Source: Candidatus Hodarchaeota archaeon (GTDB lineage Archaea; Asgardarchaeota; Heimdallarchaeia; Hodarchaeales; Hodarchaeaceae). From it: a DNA stretch of 32,631 nt. A program made the translations under genes and the position numbers. The notes under the pieces are model-generated. The model saw only the letters and a list, made by a program, of their open reading frames with translations, was not told the DNA's origin and did not search any database. Position 1 is the first letter of the stretch; each line of letters opens with the position of its first letter. This document shows, piece after piece, positions 11,142-30,744 of the stretch. Location of the stretch: assembly GCA_016839625.1 (NCBI GenBank), contig JAEOTY010000459.1, positions 1 through 32,631 of the forward strand, in the 5' to 3' direction.

Positions 11142-11495
<354 letters not shown>

Positions 11496-23839: not shown

Positions 23840-24736
23840 TTATAGGTTTGCTAAGTTGGTAGCTATTTCTCTTTCTGCTCGTTGAAGATCCTTTGGGAAG
23901 TCGATATCGACCCAAAGATCTGGTGACACGATCTTTGTGTGAATTTTGTGACCTGAGAGAAGGAGACGTTCTATTGCAGCTGTGAAATATAATTCTATAA
24001 ATTCCTCCTCTCGTGCCATTTCTTTTAATGCTTCCTGTAAGTAATTAGCTCCTTTGTCACTGAATTTCGCAATACCAGTAAATTCGTATTTTGTTGAACT
24101 ATTTGGAATCTCTTTTCCTATATCAATCAAATACTCGTCTTCAAGAATAACTTTCTCAGCTTCGTTGTCGATAATAGAGGAAGTGACAGCAACTGATATT
24201 TCATTTTCATCGTTAATCAGGCTATTGATGATACTTTTTGGAAATAAAATATCACTATAAAGAATGAAAAGTGGACCATTCATTTCATCACTAGCAAACC
24301 ATGCACTAGCAAGAATATTCGATACAGTATAGAAGGGATTATAAATGTATTTTACTTCTCTTTTGAAATAATCTCTCATTTTCTTGTCTTGAAAACCAGT
24401 AACCAAGATTATTTCATTAATGCCACAAACGTGAAGAGTGTCAATCATATGACGAAGTATAGGTTTGTTTCCTACAGGAATTAATCCCTTGGGTAAATTT
24501 TGCGAATAAGGAAAAAGACGTTTTGATTTTCCTGCTGCTAAGATAATAGCTTTAATTCCACTATTCCGATATCCGGGGTTCTGTTCTAAGAATGTAGAAA
24601 GAAATTCTGTATCATTCGCTTCTGCTGGAGTAAGTCGTTTAATCATCTTTTGATAGACTTTGTTATTGACACGATAACTTTGTACAAGATAATAATATGT
24701 TTTTGATCCCGATTTAACCTTTTTAATGAAAACCAT
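23840..24736 (-). CDS. Sugar-phosphate/alcohol-phosphate nucleotidyltransferase with transposase-like N-terminal module
   Basis: 298 aa. Residues about 62-290 are an NTP-transferase domain. AIILAAGKSKRLFPYSQNLP, then KGLIPVGNKPILRHM, is the nucleotide-binding loop, LYSDILFPKSI carries the metal Asp, and LWVDIDFPKDLQRA ends it as in LicC-type phosphocholine cytidylyltransferases. Residues 1-36 (FIKKVKSGSKTYYYLVQSYR, then VNNKVYQKMIKRL) are unusual. They look like the small N-terminal strand module of IS1634-like transposases. It is divergent from a second enzyme of the same type (24866-25630), 129 bp away, and is part of the candidate headgroup gene group. ATG 24736 has only a weak SD. Confidence 0.8.
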   Translation of the reverse strand: MVFIKKVKSGSKTYYYLVQSYRVNNKVYQKMIKRLTPAEANDTEFLSTFLEQNPGYRNSGIKAIILAAGKSKRLFPYSQNLPKGLIPVGNKPILRHMIDTLHVCGINEIILVTGFQDKKMRDYFKREVKYIYNPFYTVSNILASAWFASDEMNGPLFILYSDILFPKSIINSLINDENEISVAVTSSIIDNEAEKVILEDEYLIDIGKEIPNSSTKYEFTGIAKFSDKGANYLQEALKEMAREEEFIELYFTAAIERLLLSGHKIHTKIVSPDLWVDIDFPKDLQRAEREIATNLANL

Positions 24737-24828
24737 AACTAACTATCCTGTTTTCCTACAAATATGTGTGAAAATATATCAATATTTTTAAATGTTTACT
24801 ACAGAATCACCAAAAACGCATCATAACA

Positions 24829-24838
24829 GTATAAAATA
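24829..24838 (+). promoter_or_regulatory. TATA box deciding the start of the second nucleotidyltransferase
   Basis: GTATAAAATA at 24829-24838 predicts a transcript start near 24857. That lies after the in-frame TTG 24839 and ATG 24848 but before ATG 24866, which also has AAGGAAG at SD distance. Confidence 0.55.
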
Positions 24839-24865
24839 TTGGAAAAAATGAAAGGAAGAAATATC

Positions 24866-25630
24866 ATGCAAGGAATTATAATCGCCGCTGGCCCAAGTTC
24901 AAGATTAAGGCCACTTACCGAAAACACGCCAAAAGCTTTGCTTGAAATTGAGGGTAAAACAATTCTGCAAAGAACATTGGAATGCTTACGTGGTTGTGGA
25001 ATTGACAATATCGCAATCGTCAGAGGATATCAGAAAGAACAGATAACTGTCCCAAACATAACTTACTTTGATAACGACAATTATGAAAGTAATAACATTC
25101 TCGAATCAATGTTCTATGCAGAAGAAGTCATGGAAAAGGGATTTATTTTTTCATATTGTGATATACTCTACAGTAAAGAGGTTGTTCAAAAACTATTGGA
25201 TTCTCCACACGATATTAACCTAATAGTCGATACTGCGTGGGCTAAACGATACGAGGGACGTACAGATCATCCAACGGATGAGGCAGAATTAGCATTAGTT
25301 GAAAATGGGTTAGTAACTCGACTCTCAAAATTTTTCAATCCAGATGCTGCTTATGGCGAGTTCATTGGATTAGCTAAGTTCTCGAAAAAAGGTGCCGAAA
25401 TTCTTCGTCGAAATTATTATCGTAGTAAGGAGAATAAAACATGCAAATTTGAAGGACGTTTTCACGACGCAACGAAATTTGAATTAGCATATTTAACAGA
25501 CATGATTCAAGAATTGATATTTCGTGGTTTCCCTGTACATTCAGTCGATATTGAAAATAATTGGGTGGAGATAGATACGTTACAAGATTACGAGTATGCA
25601 AAAAATATGATAATAAAGGGTATATTATAG
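24866..25630 (+). CDS. Nucleotidyltransferase, phosphocholine cytidylyltransferase-like
   Basis: 254 aa from ATG 24866 (start chosen from the TATA box and SD; TTG 24839 and ATG 24848 are in frame upstream). MQGIIIAAGPSSRLRPLTEN, then TPKALLEIEGKTI, is the NTP-binding loop with the catalytic Arg and Lys. FSYCDILYSKEV carries the metal Asp, and NNWVEIDTLQDYEYA closes the fold. The NNILESMFYAEE segment and the WVEID ending match LicC and inositol-phosphate cytidylyltransferase-type enzymes, which make CDP-alcohols from CTP. The exact alcohol phosphate is not readable. The organophosphate transporter gene follows after 31 bp, so both are probably one transcript. Confidence 0.8.
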   Translation: MQGIIIAAGPSSRLRPLTENTPKALLEIEGKTILQRTLECLRGCGIDNIAIVRGYQKEQITVPNITYFDNDNYESNNILESMFYAEEVMEKGFIFSYCDILYSKEVVQKLLDSPHDINLIVDTAWAKRYEGRTDHPTDEAELALVENGLVTRLSKFFNPDAAYGEFIGLAKFSKKGAEILRRNYYRSKENKTCKFEGRFHDATKFELAYLTDMIQELIFRGFPVHSVDIENNWVEIDTLQDYEYAKNMIIKGIL

Positions 25631-25661
25631 TTATCAAATATTATAAAAGGTGTTAAATTAG

Positions 25662-26984
25662 ATGAGCACAGTGGATAATGATGTAAAAGAAAAATGGCGT
25701 TATTGGCGAATACGTATTTTTGTTACAGTATGGGTAACGTACATGACCTATTATATAGGGAGAACGAATATTGGGATCGCAAAACCCTTTATATTGGCTG
25801 AATTTGGTATAGATACCGCGGTATTTGGTTTAGTAGGTTCAGCTATGTTTATCATGTACGCTATTGGCCAATTTGTTAATGGTGCACTAGGTGATAAATT
25901 AGGCTCAAGGCGATTAGTCAGTATAGGATTAATTGCCTCTGCTATCATAAACTTAGTATTTGGATTTGCTGATACAATATTTGGAGATTCTGCTTCCTTA
26001 GTTACCATGATGTTTGTATTATGGGGTTTGAATGGTTATTTTCAATCTATGGGCTGGGCCCCATCAGTTAAAACAGTAGCAAATTGGTATCCTCCTGAAA
26101 AAAGAGGAAGATGGTCAAGTTTCCTAGGAACCTCATATCAGATTGGAGGTGCTGTTTCATGGATTCTTGCTACATTGATAATCGTGACCATTGGTCTAGA
26201 TTGGAGGTTTTCTTTCTGGATAGCAGGTTTGATAATGCTTGCATCAGGAATTCATAACTATATTCGTGTAAGAAGCGCTCCAGAAGTAGTTGGACTGCCA
26301 ACTATTGAAGAAGAAAAAGCAGGAAAAACAGAAATCAAAGAAGTTCGTGAAGACACATATCTAGGATTAGACTATACCATTAAAAGTATTCTGACAAATA
26401 GAACAGTTTTATTTGCCTCATTTGGGTTATTTTGTCTAAACATTGTTAGATATGGTATTACTGAATGGTTACCTTATATCATAGCAGAAGGAGTAACTGG
26501 TAGTGACTTTTTCCCATTATGGAAGACCATAGCCTTTCCCATTGGAGGAACTATTGGTGCAATAACTTGTGCTTGGTTTTCGGATAAATATCTAGATAGA
26601 AGGAGGATGCCTTTGATAAGTGCTCTTTTCCTCTGTTTAGCAGCTTCATTGACAATTTATATGTTTTTACCACCGTTAGACTGGTTAATTGGCGCACCAT
26701 TACTTGTTGTAATAGGATTTCTTACTTTTGGACCACATGTATTATTAGTATCTACCATTCCAATGGAATTTGGAACTAGAAAAGCAGCTTCGACAGCAAC
26801 GGGATTCATTGATGGATGGGGATATGTAGGTTCAGCAATAACAACTTTTGGTTCTGGAGTCCTATTGTTCCTAGAGGAAGGACCAGAGAGTACGTTTCTT
26901 TTCTGGATAATAATGGCACTACTAGGTGGTTTAGTGCTTCTATTAAACTGGAAGAGTGTACCAGAAGAAAAAGAATACCTTTAG
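25662..26984 (+). CDS. MFS transporter of the organophosphate:phosphate antiporter (GlpT/UhpT) type
   Basis: 440 aa with 12 TM helices and a central cytoplasmic loop (about 205-225). The N-terminal RIFVTVWVTYMTYYIGRTNI and the segment GYFQSMGWAPSVKTVANWYP, then PEKRGRWSSFLG, follow GlpT and UhpT, whose substrates are glycerol-3-phosphate and hexose phosphates exchanged for phosphate. The second-half motif TRKAASTATGFIDGWGYVGS is also OPA-like. The protein sits in the cytoplasmic membrane. Its place directly behind a cytidylyltransferase suggests it imports the phosphorylated (or phosphonate) alcohol that the enzyme activates; this is inference. A strong hairpin follows 18 bp after the stop. 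Confidence 0.85.
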   Translation: MSTVDNDVKEKWRYWRIRIFVTVWVTYMTYYIGRTNIGIAKPFILAEFGIDTAVFGLVGSAMFIMYAIGQFVNGALGDKLGSRRLVSIGLIASAIINLVFGFADTIFGDSASLVTMMFVLWGLNGYFQSMGWAPSVKTVANWYPPEKRGRWSSFLGTSYQIGGAVSWILATLIIVTIGLDWRFSFWIAGLIMLASGIHNYIRVRSAPEVVGLPTIEEEKAGKTEIKEVREDTYLGLDYTIKSILTNRTVLFASFGLFCLNIVRYGITEWLPYIIAEGVTGSDFFPLWKTIAFPIGGTIGAITCAWFSDKYLDRRRMPLISALFLCLAASLTIYMFLPPLDWLIGAPLLVVIGFLTFGPHVLLVSTIPMEFGTRKAASTATGFIDGWGYVGSAITTFGSGVLLFLEEGPESTFLFWIIMALLGGLVLLLNWKSVPEEKEYL

Positions 26985-27001
26985 ACAAAAAAAAGAACTT
27001 C

Positions 27002-27043
27002 ATCCGATCTTTTTAAGGATATTATAATAACCAAAGATCGGAT
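27002..27043 (+). terminator. Long hairpin after the transporter gene
   Basis: ATCCGATCTTT (27002-27012) pairs perfectly with AAAGATCGGAT (27033-27043). Inside, GG/CC pairs and the palindrome TATTATAATA (27020-27029) extend the structure with a 4-nt bulge. It starts 18 bp after the stop at 26984. A T-run follows at 27057-27065. Probably a terminator or 3' stabilising structure. Confidence 0.6.
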
Positions 27044-27091
27044 CTAGTTCAATTTCCATTTTTTTCATAATCACCAGCATTAAATGGTGGT

Positions 27092-27126
27092 CTTATTCTC
27101 TTTTGAATAAGAAAAAAAGAAAAAAT
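27092..27126 (-). terminator. U-rich tract and hairpin after the GYD gene
   Basis: On the minus strand, downstream of the GYD stop, there are U-runs (TTTTTT and TTTTTTT) followed by the hairpin CTTATTC-AAAAGA-GAATAAG (27111-27092). Runs of U are the usual archaeal terminator signal. Confidence 0.45.
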
Positions 27127-27153
27127 GGAAGTGAAAAATATGGTTGAACTTTT

Positions 27154-27444
27154 CTATGGCAAATCCTTAAGAATTTCTCCTAATTCTTCAGCTGGAACTG
27201 CAACCAATGTTTCTGTTCTAACTGCTCCTCCAGCACCAACAGTTATCAAGGATTTCATCACTGCTTCGTTACTTGGGGCTTCAGCTATAACAATGAAATC
27301 ATACCTTCCCATAGTTAGGTAGAATTGTTTGATTTCTCCTCCAAATGACTTTGCAACTTCTTTGGCCTGCTCTAACCGCTTAGGTGAATCCTTCATACCT
27401 TTGACTCCCTCTTCAGTATATTTTCCTAAAATAATAAAATGCAT
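27154..27444 (-). CDS. GYD domain protein
   Basis: 96 aa from ATG 27444. It matches the GYD family (dimeric alpha-beta barrel fold): HFIILGKYTEEGVKGMKDSP, then VAKSFGGEIKQFYLTMGRYD (the GRYD equivalent of the GYD signature), FIVIAEAPSNEAVMKSLITV, and ETLVAVPAEELGEIL. No enzymatic role is established for the family. The start is set by a strong SD (GGAGGT, 27452-27457 region). It interrupts, on the opposite strand, the run of headgroup-like genes. Confidence 0.85.
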   Translation of the reverse strand: MHFIILGKYTEEGVKGMKDSPKRLEQAKEVAKSFGGEIKQFYLTMGRYDFIVIAEAPSNEAVMKSLITVGAGGAVRTETLVAVPAEELGEILKDLP

Positions 27445-27727
27445 TTTTCTTACCTCCAAGAGTAGTATAATTTAATCTACTCACGACTATTTAAATTCTT
27501 CTTTCTTTTTAACTACTAGAAGATTAATTGTATGATCGTGAGGCTCTCTCAAGCAGAAGCCAATTGAATATTCCCCCAAAATTATAGAAACATTGCAATT
27601 CCTTGTGGTTAATAGGCTAAACTTTTATGTTTTAATGAAATATTATCCAATACTGAATCTGTACGGAAAATCCTGATGAAATCGTCTGATACTTCCCAGT
27701 AATGATAATTAGAAAAAAGGATTAACC

Positions 27728-28423
27728 ATGTCGCTTCAAAAAATTCTCGCAATAGGAAAGTCAAACCCAGATAAGGGTCTCAAGGATTCTCACAAGAAAG
27801 AAGATATTACAATTCGATTCGCTAGAAGAGTGTCAAGACCATTGGTTGATTTGGTTGAACCTTATTCCTTTATTACTCCAAATCGCCTAACCTGGTTTGG
27901 ATTTTTTATTTACTTAATTGGTGCTGTAATTTTAGTGCTTGCCCAAGATAATATTTTCTTATTATTTTGCACTGGGTTTTGCATCTGGTTGGATAGTATC
28001 ATTGATGTTATGGATGGGGAGTTGGCTAGGAAGAAGGGAATGGCTAGCAAGAGAGGACGATGGCTGGATGATGTTCTTGGAGAATTTAAGGGATTTCCAT
28101 TCTGGTTAGCTCTGGGTCTCAATATCTCAAATGGCAACGGACAATTTACATTACAAATTTGGGGGTATCAAATGATGGGAAATACATGGTTTGTTATCTT
28201 CATACTATATGGTTTGTTGGCTTTTCTAGCTTTAAGCTCCCTACGTAGTACAGTTATTTTTAATGAACCACAGAATATTTCCTTTGGTCATGTATATATC
28301 GTCTGGATTTTTCTTACATTGAACCTCCTAGAACTATTGTTAGTTCTATTCACTCTTGGAGTAATATTGGGAACAATTTACACCCTATTTGAAAAGACCT
28401 TTCTCCCACAAGATGAAGCCTAA
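27728..28423 (+). CDS. CDP-alcohol phosphatidyltransferase family protein
   Basis: 231 aa membrane enzyme with about six TM helices. The family transfers a phosphoalcohol between a CDP-alcohol and a lipid or second alcohol. The signature D-x2-D-G-x2-A-R-x8-G-x3-D-x3-D is present as Asp93, Asp96, Gly97, Ala100, Arg101, Gly110 and Asp114. The last Asp, expected at 118 and thought to be the catalytic base, is Gly (Glu119 is next to it). TPNRLTWFGFFIYLIGA before it is the usual TPN-LT motif. AAAGGA before ATG 27728 is the SD. The methyltransferase gene follows after 33 bp. It may act with the cytidylyltransferases nearby. The missing Asp makes activity uncertain. Confidence 0.8.
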   Translation: MSLQKILAIGKSNPDKGLKDSHKKEDITIRFARRVSRPLVDLVEPYSFITPNRLTWFGFFIYLIGAVILVLAQDNIFLLFCTGFCIWLDSIIDVMDGELARKKGMASKRGRWLDDVLGEFKGFPFWLALGLNISNGNGQFTLQIWGYQMMGNTWFVIFILYGLLAFLALSSLRSTVIFNEPQNISFGHVYIVWIFLTLNLLELLLVLFTLGVILGTIYTLFEKTFLPQDEA

Positions 28424-28456
28424 CTTCAGCAGTTTCTAATTTCAAGTTGAGTAATA

Positions 28457-29134
28457 ATGTCCAAGGACTTGTTCGATGAAATAAATACTGATCAATTCAG
28501 AGAGAATTTTCTTAAATACACGAGAAAGGCTTTTCAAATGCTTCCTGAATTAGAAAAACCACGGATCCTTGATATTGGTTGTGGTTCGGGTGTTGTAACT
28601 ATTGAATTGGCAAAGTTGAGTGATGGTGAAATATTAGGAATAGATATTGACCAATTCGTCCTAGATACACTTAATAGAAAGATCAAAGAAGAAGGCTTTT
28701 CAGATCGAATAAAAAGTTTAAAATGCTCTTTATTTGAAATCGATTTCCCAGACAAAAGCTTTGAGATCGTTTGGGCAGAGGGACTACAATTCATTGATTT
28801 TGAAATGAGACTTAAAGAGTGGAAAAGGCTACTCACAACCAACGGATTTTTAGTTATTCATGATAGTATTAAAAACATGTCTGATAAACTTAGAATTATC
28901 CCTAGTTGCGGTTATAGACTAATCGAGTATTTTTTGTTGCCCGAGAATGCCTGGTGGGTAGAATATTATTGCCCTCTTGAAATTCGAATAATTGACCTAC
29001 GGAAGAAATACAATAATGATCCAGAAGCCTGTAAGACATTCAAAAAGTATCAGGATGAAATAGAAATGGCCAAAAAGAATCCTAAGGATGCTCGTTCAGT
29101 GTTTTATATAATGCAGAGGTTATCATCCAACTAA
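28457..29134 (+). CDS. Class I SAM-dependent methyltransferase
   Basis: 225 aa. Motif I is RILDIGCGSGVVTIELAK (38-45 is the glycine loop), motif II acidic residues are in EILGIDIDQFVLDTLNRKI, motif IV is SFEIVWAEGLQFID, and LLTTNGFLVIHDSIKNM is the post-motif strand. The C-terminal third, with YFLLPENAWWVEYYCPLEIR, is specific and probably binds the acceptor. Acceptor unknown. It is 33 bp behind the CDP-alcohol phosphatidyltransferase, so a lipid or headgroup methyltransferase is an attractive but unproven reading. A terminator hairpin follows. Confidence 0.8.
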   Translation: MSKDLFDEINTDQFRENFLKYTRKAFQMLPELEKPRILDIGCGSGVVTIELAKLSDGEILGIDIDQFVLDTLNRKIKEEGFSDRIKSLKCSLFEIDFPDKSFEIVWAEGLQFIDFEMRLKEWKRLLTTNGFLVIHDSIKNMSDKLRIIPSCGYRLIEYFLLPENAWWVEYYCPLEIRIIDLRKKYNNDPEACKTFKKYQDEIEMAKKNPKDARSVFYIMQRLSSN

Positions 29135-29193: not shown

Positions 29194-29220
29194 GAGAAGA
29201 GAGATTTACTCTCTCTTTTT
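29194..29220. terminator. Shared terminator hairpin between convergent genes
   Basis: GAGAGA (29199-29204) pairs with TCTCTC (29210-29215) around the loop TTTAC, with A/T and G-U pairs extending the stem into the T5 run at 29216-29220. It serves the + methyltransferase and overlaps the last codons (YKKRE) of the minus-strand surface protein. Confidence 0.6.
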
Positions 29221-30744
29221 GTAGTTCAACAACATCACAGAAATTATAGTGAAGACAAGAGGGATTAATGTAAAACCAGGCGTACTGCTAGCACTTGTAC
29301 TACTTGCTGTTGTTTCCTCTAGTTCCTCCTCTGCGATCGTCCAGAGACTAAAATGAGTTGTATTGCAATAAAGTGTATCCCCTTCTAACCACTGGTGTTT
29401 AGGTGCTTCCCATGCCTCAGAAGATTCATTGTAAAACATGAACTTAAGCTTTTCCATGTTTTTAACGCCCAATTGATTTTTCAGTTGATTTGTTAATGCA
29501 AAAGAAAAATTTGCTTGAATCTGAGCAGTATTGTTCATTTCGATAGCGATTGTTTGTGTACGAATGTGATGCTTTTGCTGTGTCATTGCTTTGGGTGATT
29601 TCTCGTACTCCGTAACAGAAATCTCAGAACTAAGATTTAATTTCAGTTGTAGGGAAAAACCGCTTTGTGTCTGGATTTGGTATTGATGACCAGCTTCAAT
29701 AGCAAACCCTGTGCCATTCTGGGAATTGAATGGTGTTCCTGGGGTAGGATTTTGTTGAGGAGTTTCTGTGCTTTCTGGTGATAGAATGGTCCAAATACTG
29801 AAATGAGTTGTGTTACACAGAACAGTAGCTCCTTCGGGGGTTATTTCAATCCAATTTTGATCAGCATATTGCCATTGAAACTTGGTAGTGTTATAGAATG
29901 CCCATTTGAAGGTTGACACATTGCCAAGACCAGCTATTTCTGTATTCGTATAGTTCCTAAATAAAGTTGCATTCATCGCAACAGTCCCATTAAGTTCTAA
30001 GTGCATGTACCGATTGACAGCACGAGTTTGGTTTGGCAACGGGCCTGTAGGATTGGTCTCTGATTCGTTGATCTGAAGCTTAACGCTTTCATTTGTCTGA
30101 ATTCGAATTTGATTTCCATTCATTGTTTTTATCTGAGATCGGTTTCCAGCTGTGATATTAATTTTTTCTCCGTTACCTGCAGTTATCCAAGACCCATTAG
30201 GATTACTGCTTTCTGGTGCGAGAATTGTCCAAATACTGAAATGGGTTGTGTTACACAGAACCGTTGCTCCTTCTGGTGTCATTTCAACCCAATTGTGATG
30301 AGTATATTGCCATTGAAACGTGGAAGTGTTATAAAACGCCCATTTGAAGGTTGAAACATTACCAAGACCAGATAGTTCACTGTTAGTATAGTTCCTGAAC
30401 AAAGTTGCATTCATCTCAACAGTCCCATTGAGTTCTAAGTGCATGTACTGATTAACAGCCCGGGTTTGGTTTGGTAACGGGCCTGTAGGGTTGGTCTCTG
30501 ATTCGTTGATCTGAAGCTTTACGCTTTCATTTGTCTGGATTCGAATTTGATTTCCTTTCATTGTTTTAAGCTGGGTTCTGTTTCCAGCTGTTATATTAAT
30601 TTTTTCTCCGTTACCTGCAGTTAACCAAGGCTCAGTAGGATTATTACTTATAGTTAAAGTAGTGTCAGCACCTACAGGAACCAAAAAGTTAATTCCAAGA
30701 AGACTGAAAGTAACTAAGAAAAAAATCAAACTATTTTTTTTCAT
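29206..30744 (-). CDS. Secreted Asn/Thr-rich surface protein with three ~146-residue repeats
   Basis: 512 aa. Signal peptide at 1-26 (KKNSLIFFLVTFSLLGINFL). Three repeat units follow. Units 1 and 2 (about 38-183 and 184-329) are nearly identical, each running from AGNGEKINITAGNR through NQTRAVN-YMHLELNGTV and GLGNVSTFKWAFYN to EGATVLCNTTHFSIWTIL. Unit 3 (about 345-480) is divergent but ends LYCNTTHFSLWTI. Many N-x-S/T sequons suggest heavy N-glycosylation. The C-terminus has a Thr/Ser linker, then TPGFTLIPLVFTIISVMLLN and YKKRE. This PGF, hydrophobic, basic order matches PGF-CTERM archaeosortase signals. It is probably an anchored cell-surface or S-layer-associated protein. Function unknown. 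Confidence 0.75.
   Translation of the reverse strand: MKKNSLIFFLVTFSLLGINFLVPVGADTTLTISNNPTEPWLTAGNGEKINITAGNRTQLKTMKGNQIRIQTNESVKLQINESETNPTGPLPNQTRAVNQYMHLELNGTVEMNATLFRNYTNSELSGLGNVSTFKWAFYNTSTFQWQYTHHNWVEMTPEGATVLCNTTHFSIWTILAPESSNPNGSWITAGNGEKINITAGNRSQIKTMNGNQIRIQTNESVKLQINESETNPTGPLPNQTRAVNRYMHLELNGTVAMNATLFRNYTNTEIAGLGNVSTFKWAFYNTTKFQWQYADQNWIEITPEGATVLCNTTHFSIWTILSPESTETPQQNPTPGTPFNSQNGTGFAIEAGHQYQIQTQSGFSLQLKLNLSSEISVTEYEKSPKAMTQQKHHIRTQTIAIEMNNTAQIQANFSFALTNQLKNQLGVKNMEKLKFMFYNESSEAWEAPKHQWLEGDTLYCNTTHFSLWTIAEEELEETTASSTSASSTPGFTLIPLVFTIISVMLLNYKKRE
29771..30646 (-). repeat. Two near-identical 438-bp tandem coding repeats
   Basis: The sequence starting CTTTCTGGTG at 29771 recurs at 30209, an offset of exactly 438 bp (146 codons). 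The units differ by scattered substitutions only, with no visible length change. This indicates a recent in-frame duplication, or homogenisation by gene conversion, and the region is prone to recombination and assembly collapse. Confidence 0.85.

Follow-up and report, generated by a model that had tools for sequence, protein, structure and literature searches.

Three adjacent genes of an Asgard archaeon (a member of the archaeal group nearest to eukaryotes), designated as NT1, NT2, and OPA, form a conserved unit which probably works as a compact module for importing a phosphonate (a compound whose phosphorus is bonded directly to carbon) and activating it to CMP-phosphonate. The unit lies in a 32,631-nucleotide stretch of DNA from Candidatus Hodarchaeota archaeon (contig JAEOTY010000459.1), and this whole analysed stretch is further referred to as the window. 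According to the proposed mechanism the OPA-type antiporter would bring in a small phosphonate with phosphate leaving in exchange, NT2 would join it to CTP to give CMP-phosphonate and pyrophosphate, and a transferase encoded elsewhere would place the phosphonate on either a lipid or a surface glycan; NT1, another enzyme with the fold of NT2, may act on a related substrate or serve as a substrate-responsive partner. PEP mutase (PepM) is the usual marker gene for phosphonates. Since it was detected neither in the window's genome, where the absence is not absolute because the genome is 83% complete, nor in the Hodarchaeal genomes that carry NT2-OPA, an environmental source of the phosphonate is proposed.

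Locus Organization and Conservation

The following features were assigned in the window:

23840-24736, minus strand: NT1, nucleotidyltransferase of the PntC/LicC fold, 298 aa (PF00483/PF12804)
24557-24736, minus strand: N-terminal domain of NT1, 60 aa, conserved across the five NT1s and matching no family
24737-24868: NT1-NT2 divergent intergenic region containing a block like TTTTCCTACA-n-TGTGTGAAAA, conserved in a five-congener alignment (read by eye)
24869-25630, plus strand: NT2, predicted CTP:phosphonate cytidylyltransferase (PF12804)
25662-26984, plus strand: OPA, organophosphate:Pi antiporter-like MFS protein, predicted phosphonate transporter
27154-27459, minus strand: GYD-domain gene between OPA and PT (PF08734, 101 bits)
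27728-28423, plus strand: PT, CDP-alcohol phosphatidyltransferase homologue (PF01066)
28457-29134, plus strand: MT, class I SAM methyltransferase

All five genes whose families had been named in the first-pass annotation were recovered by profile matches, and the tight spacing it described for the cytidylyltransferase-transporter and phosphatidyltransferase-methyltransferase pairs corresponds to gaps of 31 bp (NT2-OPA) and 33 bp (PT-MT). A start of NT2 at 24839 is possible, the ATG at 24869 being likelier. A single five-gene operon was ruled out, because NT1 is divergent from NT2 on the opposite strand, the minus-strand GYD-domain gene, which is outside the module, intervenes between OPA and PT, and PT and MT are unlinked in relatives.

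The same NT1-NT2-OPA arrangement was found in 5 of the 12 genomes analysed for this Hodarchaeum-type genus, where NT1, its N-terminal domain, and OPA are confined to exactly those congeners which possess NT2. Among 117 related genomes OPA (E<=1e-40) is present in exactly the 6 with NT2 at >=70% identity (6/6 versus 0/111 of the remaining genomes; Fisher 3e-10, uncorrected for kinship). The association is beyond chance, and the unit consists of these three genes only: the neighbourhood, which had been suggested for a conservation check, is kept in relatives as far as NT1-NT2-OPA is concerned, whereas PT and MT lie on other contigs in the NT2-bearing relatives.

Phosphonate Genes at Related Loci

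Of the 31 loci whose NT2-clade gene is unfused, 16 have PEP mutase alongside, and other members of the clade are fused to it; the locus search was seeded partly with PepM-fused sequences and fused loci are therefore enriched, the count of unfused loci being less affected. Seven Lokiarchaeota share the order NT2-OPA-[PepM-NT]-FeADH-NTb, with Ppd next in view in six of them, and a Thermoplasmata MAG (L094) carries PepM-NT, Ppd, FeADH, NTb, OPA, and NT2. PepM and Ppd of locus L084 scored above the NCBIfam cut-offs (349 vs 320 and 421 vs 313, respectively). At a Chloroflexi locus two NT2s and a relative of NT1 occur with PhnD, PhnC, and PhnE (PF12974, 245 bits; TIGR02315 and TIGR01097, over cut-off), and an Anaerolineales locus contains NT2 with PhnD. 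The Lokiarchaeal operons have up to three NTs each, a redundancy which counts against the phosphonate reading.

Lokiarchaeota and one Hodarchaeum-type genome carry phosphonate-making operons, and five other genomes of that type show an apparent salvage version; no description of Asgard phosphonate operons or metabolism was found in the open-access literature searched. Phosphonate catabolism via C-P lyase was rejected, as no PhnJ was found in the 11 genomes searched. LicD, likewise not found in 11 genomes searched, was rejected as the acceptor transferase in this genus, and so was PF04464, whose weak own-genome match scores slightly better as a glycosyltransferase.

NT2 Clade, Fold, and Probable Substrate

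The NT2 clade received 100/99 support in the tree. When AF2 models were compared by Foldseek, PntC was the best PDB fold match of both NT1 (6pd2; model pLDDT 91.4) and NT2 and ranked above LicC, while LicC was the best PDB match of both by sequence. Models and alignments indicate that NT2 has the CTP loop and metal acids of the LicC/PntC-type nucleotidyltransferase fold, with K22, D98, E234, and D236 retained. The characterized PntC enzymes (Tde1415/6PD2 and Ari1348; PMC6697681) share these features and, at clade level, the association with PEP mutase; however, NT2 is about 24% identical to PntC, is paired with a transporter, and comes from a genome where PEP mutase was not detected. Among the options listed earlier for this locus, the PntC/phosphonate one is favoured by the PEP mutase-linked clade and the PntC fold. 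The inositol-type solute, also listed there, was rejected: archaeal IPCT/DIPPS systems do use nucleotidyltransferase and PF01066 families that are both present in the window, but IPCT and IPCT-DIPPS match NT2 more weakly than PntC and LicC, the window genes are separate, and PT is unlinked to NT2.

One residue which bears on the substrate is Tyr96, invariant across the NT2 alignment. It occupies the position of Glu104 of Tde-PntC, which contacts the AEP amine (PMC6697681), and the column of the choline-pocket Asp105 of LicC. In the same column a Lokiarchaeal NT clustered with PhnW has Glu, and the NTs of Lokiarchaeal FeADH clusters do not. In the PepM/Ppd/FeADH/NTb gene sets PepM is fused either to an NT2-type domain or to one of PF01467, the family which includes the CTP:HEP cytidylyltransferase of Fom1 (PMC6697681). 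Where Asgard gene sets are equivalent in other respects, PF01467-PepM fusions take the position of the NT2-type-PepM ones (G002 and G033 versus Lokiarchaeota). Fom1 is itself such a PepM-PF01467 fusion, although its superfamily is unrelated to NT2 and its product is a fosfomycin intermediate and not a surface group. Because Tyr96 replaces the amine-contacting Glu104 and because of these FeADH- and Fom1-type cluster parallels, 2-hydroxyethylphosphonate (HEP) or another non-amine phosphonate appears to be the likeliest substrate. Against HEP, Tyr96 is also present in an NT2-type domain fused to a Nitrospira PepM-like protein, beside a class-V aminotransferase.

It is possible, though rather unlikely, that the compound taken up and activated by NT2-OPA is an ordinary phosphate ester (phosphocholine, phosphoethanolamine, or glycerol-3-phosphate), which would become a CDP-alcohol by a lic-like route starting from an already phosphorylated compound. 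OPA antiporters normally carry phosphate esters, LicC is the first PDB match by sequence, and some NT2-OPA copies have genes for surface glycans close by and no PepM in view (L037, L039, and L087); nevertheless, PEP mutase, Ppd, and PhnDCE are linked to the NT2 clade in several phyla, the fold comparison places PntC above LicC, and Asp105 of LicC is replaced by Tyr. The lic phosphocholine pathway does resemble the module in proceeding from uptake through CTP activation to transfer onto the surface, and NT2 has the EID metal motif as in LicC, but that pathway imports choline and phosphorylates it afterwards, and no LicD was found in the relatives searched.

PT and MT as Neighbours of the Module

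The first-pass annotation read the five genes in order as uptake, activation, transfer, and methylation. Uptake and CTP activation agree with the NT2-OPA pair, while transfer and methylation by PT and MT are not supported, both genes being unlinked to NT2 in relatives. PT is present in 4 of the 5 congeners with NT2 and in 5 of the 7 without it, so its presence is uncorrelated with NT2, as is that of MT, whose neighbours are unrelated in every relative inspected. PT belongs to a paralogue family expanded in the genus, and one homologue, in the relative G003, adjoins a PF01467 cytidylyltransferase of its own. Despite scoring over the Pfam cut-off PT does not satisfy the D(x)2DG(x)2AR(x)8G(x)3D(x)3D motif, since the last Asp is Gly followed by Glu (GE); most PT paralogues of congeners have Glu in place of this catalytic residue.

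According to these facts PT and MT are probably merely neighbours of the module, and it is doubtful that PT (27728) transfers and MT (28457) methylates the activated group to complete a methylated lipid headgroup or solute. Their proximity and tight spacing in the window agree with such a full pathway, as do PF01066 proteins, although of other subfamilies, beside NT2-clade genes at other loci (L084, L085, L092, and L121) and the finding that, of the PF01066 proteins of this genome, the window PT alone reaches the E 1e-5 threshold in comparison with the Lokiarchaeal PF01066 protein (34.5 bits); however, the PTs of the Lokiarchaeal phosphonate clusters represent another subfamily (22-31 bits versus 170-243 within the genus family), in addition to the missing linkage and the replaced Asp. 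The proximity of PT and PepM in congener G002 was discounted as support for PT, because the PepM operon there splits a pair made up of an M48 gene and its neighbour, which are close without PepM in G001.

OPA Transporter

The best NCBIfam match of OPA is TIGR00881 (238.9 bits, under the 407.75 cut-off). Its R34 and R263 correspond to the anion-binding R45 and R269 of GlpT (1PW4), and both arginines are present in all homologues examined, while Q70 and Y159, constant in the NT2-linked subfamily, replace GlpT K80 and H165. The known 2-AEP permease AepP is a GlpT-related OPA antiporter (PMC8316502); its likeness to OPA is by description, and it is set beside AEP catabolic genes, whereas OPA stands beside a cytidylyltransferase. 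These data are consistent with OPA being a predicted phosphonate transporter that would act in import, a direction not readable from sequence.

The reverse, with OPA exporting a phosphonate, free or as a conjugate, and NT2 performing another step, for example, recycling of released phosphonate, is improbable. Antiporters are reversible, and OPA is found inside the phosphonate-making operons of Lokiarchaeota and the Thermoplasmata MAG, which is evidence against import; but the Hodarchaeal NT2-OPA genomes, with no PEP mutase detected, would therefore have nothing to export, and in Chloroflexi the equivalent place is held by PhnDCE, a system of importer type.

Least of all can it be expected that the NTs supply NDP-sugars to surface-glycan synthesis next to OPA as an unrelated sugar-phosphate importer, as the PF00483 matches and glycan genes near some Hodarchaeal copies (L035 and L037) might suggest. 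In the tree the relatives' nucleotidyltransferases of sugar type are placed outside the PEP mutase-linked NT2 clade, and the aligned ones have a DIG-type motif instead of EID; the sugar-1-phosphate specificity named earlier as grounds for refutation is thus not indicated for NT1-NT2-OPA.

Significance of the Module

The chemistry of PntC and LicC is already described, while the pairing of an importer with a cytidylyltransferase was not found in the literature searched. If the phosphonate explanation is true, uptake and CTP activation alone suffice for phosphonate headgroups, so that phosphonates may be present even where PEP mutase is lacking, and they may be passed on among members of sediment communities. 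As a more tentative extension, Hodarchaea might take ready-made phosphonates, probably HEP, which neighbours such as phosphonate-making Lokiarchaeota release, activate them to CMP-phosphonates, and decorate their own surface or lipids, which would be a salvage branch of phosphonate tailoring independent of PEP mutase. The add-on domains of the NTs might turn the enzyme into a regulator that responds to substrate and controls the divergent operon to which it belongs. The two enzymes of the module, both small and soluble, and its transporter are directly testable.

NT1 and the Divergent Intergenic Region

NT1 is sister to the Chloroflexi NT adjoining PhnDCE and two NT2s (support 97/90). Its N-terminal domain is genus-specific and is modelled with three beta strands and two short helices. 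Small N-terminal add-on domains recur in this nucleotidyltransferase group and differ from one another: that of NT1 is beta-rich, and NT2s of other phyla have several other kinds, one being possibly a C2H2 zinc finger. A DNA-binding identity of these domains was not adopted, because comparison with Pfam and PDB gave nothing significant apart from a weak zf-C2H2 hit in a single Chloroflexi protein (E=0.005).

The repeat search of the NT1-NT2 gap revealed no repeat common to all five congeners, and a palindromic operator was not accepted there, as promoter elements account equally well for the conservation; judging by the alignment, the conserved block in 24737-24868 may be either a promoter or an operator.

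Gene content and conservation of the unit

The window genome (4.83 Mb, 83% complete), among whose closest relatives are Candidatus Hodarchaeum mangrovi and further Hodarchaeota/Heimdallarchaeota MAGs, carries all five genes that the first-pass annotation had proposed as a candidate group for uptake, activation, transfer, and methylation of a CDP-activated, possibly methylated headgroup, and each was confirmed as described:

23840-24736 (-), NT1, PntC/LicC-fold nucleotidyltransferase, divergent from NT2
24869-25630 (+), NT2, PntC/LicC-fold nucleotidyltransferase; most likely start ATG 24869, matching the start in close relatives
25662-26984 (+), OPA, GlpT-type antiporter
27728-28423 (+), PT, PF01066 protein
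28457-29134 (+), MT, SAM methyltransferase

The tight spacing of both pairs was also verified (gaps of 31 bp from NT2 to OPA and 33 bp between PT and MT), and a minus-strand GYD gene lies between OPA and PT. Elsewhere in the window are a secreted protein of 512 aa that contains a nearly identical internal duplication and ends in a membrane anchor (29206-30744; no Pfam match above cut-off) and an acidic 117-aa protein with a long poly-Glu tract (11142-11495).

In the survey of 117 related genomes NT2 was found in four further congeners (the genus being represented by twelve genomes) at 71-76% identity and in one Lokiarchaeal genome at 70%, while OPA at E<=1e-40 occurred in exactly six genomes, namely the NT2-bearing ones. 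All five NT2-bearing congeners have NT1 divergent next to NT2 and OPA immediately downstream, and only they gave significant matches to the NT1-specific N-terminal domain. Homologues of PT (best copy per genome 43-50% identical) and of MT are each present in 9 of the 12 congeners, without correlation with NT2 and, in the NT2-bearing relatives, always on contigs other than that of NT2. The conserved unit is thus NT1-NT2-OPA, so that the proposed neighbourhood held for these three genes and failed for PT and MT, which are their neighbours in the window contig only.

Nucleotidyltransferases and transporter

AlphaFold2 models of NT1 and NT2 (pLDDT 91.4 and 92.8) both had PntC-AEPT as the best PDB match. 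NT1 keeps the active-site residues and bears an additional N-terminal domain (24557-24736). Varied N-terminal domains of 50-110 aa recur in the NT1/NT2 group (one type in L078, L080, L083, and L087; a second in L089-L091; a third in L094; C2H2-like in L088:7170-8201); several look by eye like small DNA-binding domains, and none matched Pfam or PDB significantly.

In a tree of 69 nucleotidyltransferases the NT2 clade (support 100/99) excluded the sugar-type enzymes of Asgard relatives; the five Hodarchaeal NT2s form a group (100/99) placed with Lokiarchaeal NT2-OPA copies (10 rows, 100/99), and a Chloroflexi enzyme beside PhnDCE is the sister of Hodarchaeal NT1 (97/90).

OPA is alignable with GlpT along its length, and both anion-binding arginines (R34, R263) are retained in every homologue examined; Gln and Tyr stand in place of K80 and H165 of GlpT, a feature that marks the NT2-linked subfamily. 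The 2-aminoethylphosphonate (AEP) permease AepP is a GlpT-related OPA antiporter (PMC8316502) and therefore provides a precedent for phosphonate transport by this fold.

Phosphonate context of the NT2 clade

A genome-wide search revealed 56 loci in Hodarchaeota, Lokiarchaeota, Bathyarchaeota, Aenigmatarchaeota, Thermoplasmata, Nitrososphaerota, Chloroflexota, Nitrospirota, Planctomycetota, and others, their contents being annotated by comparison with reference proteins. PEP mutase (PepM) was present at 16 of the 31 loci with an unfused NT2-clade gene, a count less affected by the query alignment, in which two PepM-fused sequences led to over-representation of fused loci. Seven Lokiarchaeota share the order NT2-OPA-[PepM-NT]-FeADH-NTb (Fe-ADH and second nucleotidyltransferase), followed by Ppd in six, the seventh contig (L080) stopping after NTb; a Thermoplasmata MAG (L094) has the same parts in a different order. 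PepM and Ppd of L084 exceed curated NCBIfam cut-offs, and the EDK-x5-NS motif is present in PepM proteins except those of Nitrospira. One Chloroflexi locus combines PhnD, PhnC, and PhnE with two NT2s and a relative of NT1, and PepM was not observed there over 17 kb; an Anaerolineales locus holds PhnD together with NT2.

Phosphonate biosynthesis operons with PepM fused to a nucleotidyltransferase, Fe-ADH or PhnW, a second nucleotidyltransferase, and sometimes PF04464 occur in many Lokiarchaeota (L078, L080, L081, L083-L086, L115, L116, L118, L119, L122-L126), mostly with Ppd in view. In Nitrospira and Nitrospirae (L096-L112) a PEP-mutase-like domain with EDN-x5-CS instead of the canonical motif is fused to the NT2-clade enzyme. 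Ppd-like genes belong to these loci, and those that were inspected also contain a gene for a class-V aminotransferase. Sulfatase/alkaline-phosphatase-superfamily genes, candidates for a phosphonate esterase or transferase, repeatedly adjoin NT2-clade genes in several phyla (L084:8299-9828 and L117:10746-11867, PF00884 confirmed; L088:4804-6156, by eye). An APS-kinase domain is fused to an NT2-clade nucleotidyltransferase in Scalindua (L093:9446-10774), and an APS-kinase gene lies near NT2 in a Lokiarchaeote (L039:14205-14753).

Each separately, phosphonate cytidylyl activation by PF12804 enzymes and phosphonate uptake by OPA permeases are already known; neither a dedicated importer-cytidylyltransferase unit nor Asgard archaeal phosphonate operons were found in the literature searched.

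Probable substrate

The 2-hydroxyethylphosphonate (HEP) is the expected product of Fe-ADH acting after Ppd. Glu104 and Glu196 of Tde-PntC are positioned for contact with the AEP amine, the corresponding LicC residues being Asp105 and Asp192 (PMC6697681). In NT2, unlike PntC, the Glu104 column holds Tyr96, invariant across the clade alignment. The Lokiarchaeal enzyme from a PhnW-transaminase cluster (TIGR03301, 437 vs 361 bits) has Glu in this column, where the FeADH-cluster enzymes show Tyr, His, or Asn. In congener G002 and related genome G033 PepM is fused to a domain of PF01467, the family including the CTP:HEP cytidylyltransferase of Fom1 (PMC6697681), and the gene sets also hold Ppd, NTb, and FeADH. 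From these residues and contexts HEP is a moderately supported candidate substrate of NT2, only moderately because Nitrospira NT2-type domains also have Tyr in the column and their clusters hold a class-V aminotransferase.

Final transferase and origin of the phosphonate

LicD was not found in the 11 genomes searched, PF04464 gave no convincing match as final transferase, and PF01066 enzymes are candidates for this role. Among such proteins of its own genome the window PT alone passes E 1e-5 when compared with the PT of the Lokiarchaeal cluster, but it has lost the last catalytic Asp (Gly-Glu instead), and its relatives lack linkage to NT2. The family is expanded in the genus (paralogues L046, L048-L054, L156), with this Asp mostly Glu, and one member (L053/L160) adjoins a PF01467 cytidylyltransferase.

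The window module is best read as a putative phosphonate salvage system for tailoring, because no PepM was detected in the Hodarchaeal genomes with NT2-OPA, the window's included, G002, the sole congener with PepM, lacks NT2-OPA, and C-P lyase PhnJ was not found in 11 genomes searched. The within-genus numbers are too small to prove exclusion between PepM and NT2-OPA, and several Lokiarchaeota of the other collection have both. In G002 the PF01467-PepM/Ppd/NTb/Fe-ADH operon (L156:2278-6581) separates an M48 peptidase gene from its neighbour; in G001 (L159) these two genes are about 700 bp apart and the operon is absent. The operon is an island whose gain or loss took place within the genus.
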